The position numbers were made by a program, and so were the translations under genes. Positions 13,167-16,812 of a stretch of 34,700 nucleotides of DNA are shown here, one piece after another (positions within the stretch are counted from its first letter, which is position 1; every line of letters begins with the position of its first letter). A model generated the notes under the pieces. That model did not search any database, was not told where the DNA came from, and saw nothing but the letters and a program-made list of their open reading frames with translations. Location of the stretch: assembly GCA_028286885.1 (NCBI GenBank), contig JAQBQS010000015.1, positions 1-34,700 on the forward strand, written 5' to 3'. The DNA comes from Patescibacteria group bacterium (GTDB taxonomy: Bacteria > Patescibacteriota > Minisyncoccia > Phycocordibacterales > UBA1006).

Positions 13167-13782
13167 ACACTCGAAGCTTACAAATATAAATACAGGAATA
13201 ATTTTCAAAGCACACATTAATATAATCTAGTGTGTCATTTGTATTCCATTCAGATTTCCTAATAGGAATATGGGCAATTAGTAATTCTCGGCTTAATCCA
13301 TTACTGGACTTCTACCTAAATCCTATCAACGTGATCATCTCTCACGGCCCTATGATTCCTTATCTTGAAACTGGCTTCCCTCTTAGATGCTTTCAGAGGT
13401 TATCCATTCCCGACATAGCTACCCAGCGGTGCCCTTGGCAGGACAGCTGGCAGACCAGAGGTCAGTTCATCCCGGTCCTCTCGTACTAGGGACAAATTTT
13501 CTCAAGAATCAACGCCTGCAGTAGATAGGAGACCAACCTGTCTTGCGCACCTTTTCACATATTACTATGTGGATTGGACTGTAACTTATACTCAAAGTGA
13601 GTATTTCAACATTCAGTCTCTACGGGCCCCCGGATCGAGTCCGGGGTTCCCTCGGTGTTGTCCTAGGTTTAGGATTTCACCGATATTAGTTGAACGATGT
13701 CCTTGCATATCACTATGCACGACCGCCGCATTATGGTTTGGTTCTCTTTTTATCTTGTAATAATTTATGAATTTCATAGAAG

Positions 13783-13804
13783 AGGTAACTTTTTCAAGTT
13801 ACCT
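13783..13804 (-). repeat. Hairpin with GAAA (GNRA) tetraloop next to the tRNA
   Basis: Minus strand AGGTAACTT-GAAA-AAGTTACCT. Confidence 0.85.
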
Positions 13805-13806
13805 TG

Positions 13807-13882
13807 TAGAGAATGCAGGGATCGAACCCACGACCTCCAGCTTTTTCAGGGCTGGTGCTCTAACCAACTGAGCTAATCCCCC
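13807..13882 (-). tRNA. tRNA-Phe(GAA)-like cloverleaf inside the 23S intron, 9-nt anticodon loop
   Basis: GGGGGAT TA GCTC AGTTGGTTA GAGC A CCAGC CCTGAAAAA GCTGG AGGTC GTGGG TTCGATC CCTGC ATTCTCT A. All arms form, with several G-U pairs. No encoded CCA. Confidence 0.75.
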
Positions 13883-13946
13883 ATAGTATTTCCTCTATGA
13901 AATTCACAAATTATTATAGATTTTTTCTATCTTTCGCCCTCTCTGG

Positions 13947-13967
13947 ATCCCGGCTCAAGGCCGGGAT
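13947..13967. repeat. REP-like GC-rich palindrome inside the intron
   Basis: atcccggc-tcaag-gccgggat within ggatcccggctcaaggccgggatgac. Confidence 0.7.
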
Positions 13968-14738
13968 GACGGAAAGGGACTTTTATTAAACAAATTGACT
14001 AAAACAGTAATTTTTAAATCTTCCTCGGGATTCAGACTGTAAAGTGCTCTTCTCCTTAACAGGAGTTTAGTCGAAAAACACTTAACGGTCTGAACCCAGC
14101 TCGCGTAACATTTTAATTGGCGAACAGCCAAACCCTTGGGACCTTCTCCAGCCCCAGGATATGTTGAGCCGACATCGAGGTGCCGAACTTCGCCGTCGCT
14201 GTGGACGCTCGGGCGAAACTAGCCTGTTATCCCCGGAGTAGCTTTTATCCGTTGAGCTTCCCCTGTATCTAATACAAAAGGTCGGATCACTATGCTCTGC
14301 TTTCGCACCTGCTCGTCATGTACGACTTGCAGTCAAGCCATCTTGTGCCATTACACTATCGGCATGGTTTCCATTCACGCCTAGATGACCTTTGTAGGCC
14401 CCTCCGTTACTCTTTAGGAGGGATTCGCCCCAAACAAACTACCCATCACGCACTGTCTTTGAACGTTTTTTCGTCCAAGTTAGGACATACCCTTTTACAG
14501 AGTGGTATTTCACTGACGAGTATCACACGACCGAAACCGTGTGCATAACCTCTCCCACCTATGCTACGCAATAAAAGAATATGCCCAATACGAAACTATA
14601 GTAAAGCTTCCGGGGTCTTTTCGTCTAACTGCAGGTAAGCGGCATCTTCACCGCTATTGTATTTTCACCGAGCAAATCCTCGAGACAGTTCCCCAGTCGT
14701 TACACTATTCGTGCGCGTCGGAACTTACCCGACAAGGT

Positions 14739-14781
<43 letters not shown>

Positions 14782-15570
14782 CAGGGCTTATAACAGTCAG
14801 CTTGATATAATCGCACCCCCGTTATTTAACCTTCTGGCATTGGTCAAGTGTCACCCCCTATACATCATCTTACGATTTCGCAGGGAGCTGTGTTTTTGAT
14901 AAACAGTCGCCAGGGAGACTTTCGCTGCGGCCCAACAAAAGTTGGGCAATCCTTATCCCGAAGTTACGGATGCTTTTTTGCCGAGTTCCTTGAGGATCCC
15001 TCGCTCGTTCGCCTTGGTCTTCTCGACCTAATCACCTGTTTCGGTTTGCGGTACGGTTCAAATTATGTTGAATGCTAGAAGTTTTTCTCGGAAGACTCTT
15101 GATGTGCATTTCCCGGACCGAAGCCCGGAATTTCGTCTCGCCACGACTCTTGCGTACTCCGGATTTTCCTAAAGTACGAGTCTCGACGCAACGACGCCAA
15201 TCCAATAAGGCGCGCTCATGTGTATTCTCCGTCACTCCATCGCCATAATTCAAGTCATGGAATATTGACCATGTGTCCATCGCATGCGGCTATCGCCATT
15301 TGCTTAGGCCCGACTAACCCTACTCTGATTGACATTGAATAGGAAACCTTGATTTTTCGGCGGACACGGATTTAACGTGTCATGTGGTTACTTGTGCCAA
15401 CATTCTTACTTCCAAACGCTCCACGGTGGCTCACGCCTTCCGCTTCGTCGCAGATTGGAATACTCTCCTACCGCTTGATAAATAAATATCAAGCCCTCAA
15501 CTTCGGTATCATGTTTAACCCCGATCATTTGCGGCGCCAAATCTCTTGATGAGTGAGCTGTTACGCTTTC

Positions 15571-15602
<32 letters not shown>

Positions 15603-16179
15603 TCATTGTTTAAGAAATCTGACCTCCTTACGTGTACTGAACATGAATTTAGGGACCTTAATTAGAGATCTACGGCTGTTTCCGTTTCGACTCGTGGAGC
15701 TTCGCCCCCACTGTCTAACTGCCGCGCTCTGACTCTTGGTATTCGGAGTTTGATAGGTTTCACGAGATTGCTCCCTGTTGAAACCATCCAGTGCTCTACC
15801 CCCAAGAGGAACACGCGACGCTATCCCAAAAGATATTTCGGAGAGAACCAGCTATTACCAGGTTCGATTAGCTTTTCACTCCAACCCACAGATCATCCGA
15901 AAGTATTGCACGGCTTATCGGTTCGGTCCTCCATTCATCTTTCGATGAACTTCAACCTGTCCATGGGTAGATCACCTGGCTTCGGGTCTGATGTGTACGA
16001 CCAATTTTCGCCCTATTCAGACTTGCTTTCGCTTGGGCTCCGCGCGTTTACGGCGCTTAGCCAAGCCGCATACATCAACTCGTTGGCTCATTCTTCAATA
16101 GGCACGCCATGACAGTAATAAATTACTGCTCTGACTCCTTGTAGGCGTAGGGTTTCAGGTCTATTTCACTCCCCTCATC

Positions 16180-16210
<31 letters not shown>

Positions 16211-16812
16211 CGTTCACTATCGGTTTCTAGCAATATTTAGCCTTACCAGTTAGTTCTGGCAAATTCCTCCGAGCTATTCGTGTCTCGAAGTACTCAGGAG
16301 CGTGAACAAAAGAGTTCAGAATGTTTTCGGTTACGGGGGTATCACCCTCTATGCCTGATCTTCCCAGATCAATCACCTAACACTTGAATTTTTTACTCTT
16401 CTCAACTTAATGATGTTTACGTCCTATAACCCCGCATGTACCTCGGTATGTTCAAATCATTAATAAATTAATTAGTTAAACGCACCGAGGTCAACGCGGT
16501 TTGGGCTTCTTCCGTTTCGCTCGCCGCTACTTGGGAAATAACTATTGTTTTCTTTTCCTTCGGGTACTGAGATGTTTCACTTCCCCGAGTCAGCATCTGA
16601 CAGCTGTCAGATTCTGCAGTATTACCTGCAGAGGGTTTCCCCATTCGGAAATGTCCGGATCAAAGGCTATTGCCGCCTCCCCGAACCTTATCGCAGGCTG
16701 TCGCGTCCTTCATCGCTTGCTAGAACCTAGGCATCCACTCTACGCCCTTAGTTTCCTATTAGGAAATCTAAAAATTATACAAGTAACACACTTCGATTTT
16801 TCTTAATGTGCG

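Follow-up and report, generated by a model that had tools for sequence, protein, structure and literature searches.

A tRNA-Phe-like domain in a group I intron of a patescibacterial 23S rRNA gene, and its probable place as cargo of a peripheral-loop cassette

Introduction

The stretch of DNA analysed here (the window) comprises 34,700 nucleotides (nt) of contig JAQBQS010000015.1, from a very small, uncultured bacterium of the Paceibacteria branch of Patescibacteria (the candidate phyla radiation, CPR), whose genome is 93% complete and assembled in 16 contigs (GCA_028286885.1). Its 23S ribosomal RNA (rRNA) gene is interrupted by a group I intron, and inside this intron, on the same strand, lies what looks like a gene for phenylalanine transfer RNA (tRNA-Phe). 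tRNA genes often contain introns; here the tRNA is itself inside an intron, which raises the question of whether it serves translation or does something else. The explanation that we consider probable, with moderate confidence, is that it is a non-decoding, tRNA-derived RNA domain, carried as the cargo of an exchangeable cassette in a peripheral loop of the intron and excised together with the intron.

The domain folds as a tRNA but is unlikely to be a working one

The features concerned are as follows.

13807–13882, minus strand: tRNA-Phe(GAA)-like domain (ARAGORN, Rfam RF00005, own covariance model)
13842–13850, minus strand: 9-nt anticodon loop CCUGAAAAA, with GAA at 13847–13845 (from the sequence; insertions in the covariance model alignment)

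ARAGORN predicts a tRNA-Phe(gaa) at c[13806,13882], and Rfam RF00005 gives a clear match to 13882–13807 on the minus strand, at 52.2 bits compared with a gathering score of 29. With a covariance model trained on 26 of this genome's own tRNAs, the domain scores 56.8 bits (E 6e-15). All 21 pairs of the four stems are formed, and the invariant positions of the D loop and T loop are kept. The original prediction, of a cloverleaf with intact arms, is correct as far as the stems are concerned, but it overlooked the anticodon loop, which has 9 nt rather than the usual 7 and is not that of a functional tRNA-Phe.

The stems are also weaker than is typical for this genome: there are three G-U pairs in the acceptor stem and two in the T stem, and the calculated energy of the cloverleaf is −19.4 kcal/mol, compared to −25 to −30 kcal/mol for five of the genome's own tRNAs. 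The discriminator base is A. No CCA is encoded, the domain being followed by ACAA, although this is not decisive, given that ARAGORN reports many of the genome's tRNA genes without an encoded CCA. Counting tRNA genes across the genome gave 41 matches, among them a normal tRNA-Phe(GAA) whose anticodon loop has 7 nt (L006, C1:34845-34917), and so the domain is not the only gene for its codons.

A working tRNA-Phe is unlikely, because of the 9-nt loop, the three acceptor G-U pairs, the lack of CCA, and the normal tRNA-Phe(GAA) elsewhere. The proposal that this is a functional second tRNA-Phe gene, matured for translation either once the intron has been excised or by a process that competes with 23S splicing, can point to the calls made by ARAGORN and the covariance models, to the GAA anticodon and to the discriminator A; nevertheless we think it very improbable, since it also has to accommodate a sister species that lacks the domain, and a body whose identity to tRNAs, whether from this genome or from relatives, does not exceed 75–80%, in matches of mixed identity. 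The domain has probably stopped reading codons, and would be neither charged nor used in decoding.

The best identity to any of the genome's own tRNAs is 75%, which shows that the domain was not copied recently from a host gene. A phage origin was also considered and rejected: the best match is to a phage tRNA-Val at 80.6%, and again the matches are of mixed identity.

The domain lies in loop L1 of a group I intron

The gene and intron are made up of the following parts.

13258–16761, minus strand: 23S rRNA gene, interrupted by the intron (Rfam RF02541, 2365 bits)
13548–14084, minus strand: group I intron of 537 nt at 23S position 2593, with first base U and terminal G at 13548 (exon alignment with relatives)
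14085–14090, minus strand: end of the 5′ exon, GACCGU (from the sequence; pairs with the putative guide)
13721–13726, minus strand: GCGGUC, putative internal guide sequence (complementary to the 5′ exon; would form P1, which has its G-U pair at the splice site)

The intron limits, 14084–13548, were set by comparison with relatives, and the intron is flanked by ...GGGUUCAGACCGU (5′ exon, ending in GACCGU) and CGCAAGACAGG (3′ exon). The match to the group I intron family RF00028, at 13809–13555, has a score of 42.2 bits (E 2.4e-9 in a search of 701 nt), which falls short of the gathering score (50); introns homologous to it at this 23S site score from 50 to 56.7 bits. The conserved catalytic core (P3–P8) is recognized in the window intron from this match together with its homologues. 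The pairing of guide to exon with a G-U at the splice site, and the terminal G13548, are likewise those of a group I intron, and the box that holds the guide, CGGCG(G), is found in nearly all relatives. Location of the domain within a 23S group I intron, as originally proposed, is thereby confirmed. Given that the guide is at 13726–13721, everything from the 5′ splice site to the guide, including the tRNA, forms loop L1. It is predicted that the precursor 23S most likely splices as usual.

Position 2593 is the I-CreI site, where an endonuclease gene would be more usual. There is none in the window intron: the longest open reading frame (ORF) on either strand has 59 codons and lacks the LAGLIDADG sequence of the relatives, and the earlier remark that there is no large endonuclease ORF is borne out. 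The same position is one of the CPR 23S insertion sites described by Tsurumaki et al. 2024 (PMC11270868).

The end of the 5′ exon could alternatively pair with the start of the intron, forming a long hairpin at 14097–14028 (UUCAGAC..GUCUGAA). Many relatives show a comparable complementarity, and the hairpin may be a splicing regulator or a 5′ lid. A 5S gene is downstream of the 23S gene on the window contig, while the 16S gene is on a different contig (G000 C16:29588-31147, L207, where G000 is the window genome).

A stem and hairpin form a scaffold around exchangeable cargo

Three further features surround the domain.

13891–13916, minus strand: 5′ arm of the 26-bp scaffold stem, UAAUAAUUUGUGAAUUUCAUAGAGGA, in loop L1 (same family as the loop L6 stems of loci L193, L116, L115, L206 and L190)
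13758–13783, minus strand: 3′ arm of the scaffold stem, UCUUCUAUGAAAUUCAUAAAUUAUUA (pairs with 13916–13891)
13782–13805, minus strand: 3′ hairpin of the cassette, AAGGUAACUU gaaa AAGUUACCUC (counterparts in G001, L193, L116, L206 and L115)

The tRNA-like domain is followed by the small hairpin, and together they cap a stem of 26 base pairs (bp) between the 5′ splice site and the guide. The original prediction placed the domain correctly but missed the fact that it shares this stem with a second hairpin. The same arrangement of stem plus 3′ hairpin is found in loop L6 of group I introns at position 2593 (L2593 introns) from other families. In one of these (L193, Nomurabacteria) 20 nt of the 3′ arm, UCUUCUAUGAAAUUCAUAAA, match the window's exactly. 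We define a cassette as a covarying stem of 20–26 bp plus a 3′ hairpin around a variable cargo, and the window intron has all of these.

In an alignment of 15 scaffolds, 99.3% of the stem cells are in standard pairs, compared to 38–48% in slid controls, although it must be held against our interpretation that the set was picked for having stems, so that the percentage of pairs does not by itself count as independent evidence. Two-sided changes are seen in 14 of the 21 pairs. Such changes between clearly related arms would be hard to explain unless the stem is an RNA structure.

One comparison is with a congener, G001. It has the same intron, closely similar on both sides of the tRNA (BLAST pieces of 82% and 86%), and its stem arms are almost identical to the window's. 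At the tip of the stem, however, the cargo is unrelated: it is an RNA of about 187 nt that brings a 3′ hairpin of its own, and it has no score as a tRNA even in an unfiltered search. In a second congener (G003) the intron is present and the stem is absent. Within the family (20 genomes) the intron was seen only in G000, G001, G003 and G008, and the tRNA only in G000. The original prediction named a lack of conservation in homologous introns as evidence against it. This is half borne out, in that G001 has the stem with unrelated cargo, yet tRNA bodies recur independently in other introns (see below).

The same comparison bears on whether the locus is an assembly artefact or a chimera, a worry that is natural in a genome assembled in 16 contigs. 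The 34.7-kb contig is continuous, both halves of the intron and both arms of the stem match G001, and similar elements are present in separately assembled genomes. We regard an artefact as having almost no chance of being correct.

The cassette was not found outside L2593 introns, among 21 matches in the genome collection, 30 loci of the phylum and 3 viral contigs.

Loop L1 of the window intron also contains another insertion.

13943–13971, minus strand: second inserted hairpin in L1, repeat CGTCATCCCGGCCTTGAGCCGGGATCCAG (absent from G001)

A similar sequence, CCCCGGACTCGATCCGGGG, is in P6 of the window intron at about 13625–13645. There is a further copy of the CGTCATCCCGGCCTTGAGCCGGGATCCAG hairpin elsewhere in the genome (C16:84518-84546), and others in other genomes; it is perhaps a dispersed palindromic repeat.

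Other introns carry other tRNA bodies

A search for the pattern of the intron's 3′ end identified the intron in 89 genomes of the order (n = 397) and in 50 of the class (n = 384), the second set including some genomes of the first. We examined 117 distinct introns in addition to the window's, in which ARAGORN found one further tRNA (L116). When the genome collection was scanned with the 5′ arm of the scaffold, 21 places were identified, six of which are L2593 introns. Three of these six contain a tRNA body (L192, which is the same as L116; L193; and L206), and in all three the scaffold is in loop L6. The suggestion that CPR 23S introns be checked for tRNAs has yielded three further bodies in the same scaffold, from three other genomes.

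Each of these bodies is altered in the anticodon arm or the D arm. The L116/L192 cargo is Gln-like, with an 8-nt anticodon loop and an encoded GCCA (46.9 bits); that of L193 is Glu-like with an enlarged anticodon arm (41.1 bits); and that of L206 is Ala GGC-like, with 19 extra nt in the D loop and an encoded CCA (49.5 bits). The encoded CCA in L116/L192 and L206 directly precedes the 3′ hairpin. No near copies of the Gln-, Glu- or Ala-like bodies were found in their own genomes. A search for degenerate tRNAs in the cargo slots of L092, L146, L038 and L190 gave less than 9 bits even without filters. The L146 cargo was also considered as an antisense tRNA and rejected: only a piece resembling a T arm scored, at 7 bits. 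At L206:1408-1939, the cassette in loop L6 additionally contains about 290 nt of strongly folding RNA that has no Rfam match.

These bodies are relevant to the view that the window domain is a decaying pseudogene, which landed in the intron by chance and is unrelated to the scaffold. Its non-standard loop, its G-U-rich stems and its absence from relatives are what would be expected of such a remnant. A decaying copy would hardly have kept 21 of 21 pairs, however, nor would chance explain why the same scaffold has three other tRNA bodies, including the one in L193 with the identical 20-nt 3′ arm. We consider a pseudogene unlikely.

Non-tRNA cargo

The cargo is not restricted to tRNA. In the P6 loop of L142 (G522) it is a 16S rRNA fragment, GAUCAGCUAGUUGGUGGGGUAAUGGCUCACCAAGGC, of which 35 of 41 nt are identical to the 16S of the window genome, and in the P6 loop of L043 (G040) it includes an exact 22-nt piece of 23S rRNA, GGCCGUAACUAUAACGGUCCUA. 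Scaffolds also surround small ORFs (L115, L082 and L084), and there are small ORFs in loop L6 without a full scaffold (L172, L180 and L181). These six ORFs encode 42–86 amino acids, several follow a purine-rich start region, and they are mostly unlike each other; a Pfam search with them gave no convincing match. Some L2593 introns that lack the scaffold have a LAGLIDADG gene in loop L6, and the one tested matches I-CreI and I-MsoI. Within a single genus (g62) the content of loop L6 varies between an ORF, a tRNA, a LAGLIDADG gene and nothing. One genome (G434) has two places with an L2593 intron (L175 and L176), and LAGLIDADG sequence in loop L6 of both.

GOLLD and ROOL are large structured RNAs that occur near tRNAs or contain them. 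Neither was matched in the introns searched with Rfam. Such a search of 11 introns and L206 gave only group I intron, rRNA and tRNA, besides weak chance matches, and HEARO, retron-like or other known RNAs were rejected as an identity for the cassette.

Discussion

In the explanation that we prefer, the cassette consists of a stem of 20 to 26 bp, an interchangeable insert at its tip, and a short 3′ hairpin after the insert. It sits in loop L1 in the window genome and in loop L6 in other families, the latter being the site of the I-CreI-like endonuclease gene in other L2593 introns. The inserts appear to originate by capture of stable RNAs, and one is rapidly exchanged for another among related species. 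The tRNA-like domain would leave with the excised intron, and would act as a compact, self-folding plug that leaves the ribozyme core undisturbed, and not as a tRNA used in translation.

Several points count against this. The GAA is exactly central in the enlarged anticodon loop. In each of the four tRNA cargos every pair of the acceptor and T stems is formed, which could mean that selection has kept them recognizable to RNase P, RNase Z, the CCA enzyme or EF-Tu; the argument is weakened by the fact that detection with tRNA models is biased towards intact copies. Finally, a neutral or structural role is something that we infer from the sequence.

The second point leads to a different explanation, in which the domain would be a tRNA mimic maintained by selection as the target of some protein that binds tRNAs (RNase P, RNase Z, CCA enzyme, a synthetase or EF-Tu), for example one that cuts and clears the excised intron or helps the intron to fold. 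There is a parallel in the CYT-18 tyrosyl-tRNA synthetase, which aids the folding of fungal introns. Four independent tRNA bodies in one type of scaffold would fit this well, as would the pattern of variation, which affects the anticodon or D arms and spares the acceptor and T arms, and the presence in two bodies of a CCA right before the 3′ hairpin. Most scaffolds, however, have no tRNA, hence a mimic is not required; the cargo differs between congeners; and the bias of detection favours intact tRNA halves in particular. We rate a selected mimic as rather unlikely. The original prediction had offered a structural or protein-binding domain as its alternative, and this fits better than a translational tRNA.

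A wider proposal, which we put forward tentatively and with considerable doubt, is that the cassette of patescibacterial L2593 introns repeatedly captures pieces of the cell's stable RNAs, tRNAs above all, and that its tRNA tops persist because enzymes of tRNA processing act on the intron once it is excised. The paired acceptor and T arms in four of four cases favour retention for tRNA-binding enzymes over a plug, although here too the detection biases the result in that direction.

The preferred explanation, a cassette with a non-decoding cargo, has links to several known systems. The window intron resembles the L2593 CPR introns (PMC11270868) and introns of the I-CreI/I-MsoI type in its insertion site, core and guide, and in the I-CreI-like LAGLIDADG genes in loop L6 of several relatives. 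It is unlike the L2593 CPR introns of that paper in that its peripheral loop holds a tRNA-derived domain in a stem cassette; the word tRNA does not occur in the paper's main text. The bacterial group I introns reviewed in PMC3984707 that carry cargo are similar in having an insert in a peripheral loop outside the core, and differ in that the cargo described in the accessible part of that paper is homing endonuclease ORFs and not tRNA. The tRNA-Other of Bacillus cereus is also a tRNA-like RNA, reported to be inactive in translation (PMC3399842), but it is a free-standing island gene and not part of an rRNA intron. A tRNA as the cargo of a 23S gene intron was not found in the literature searched, which did not cover subscription papers and supplements, in agreement with the initial impression that none had been described.

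We know of no other case in which tRNA-derived RNA is a recurrent cargo of group I introns in large subunit rRNA. Tools for finding tRNAs call decoding tRNAs in rRNA introns that are probably non-decoding, and such annotations should be treated with caution. Whether RNase P or RNase Z cuts within an rRNA precursor could also be tested cleanly in this system. Loops that elsewhere hold endonuclease genes can also carry pieces of tRNA, 16S and 23S rRNA, and the evolution of these introns therefore includes the capture and exchange of RNA.
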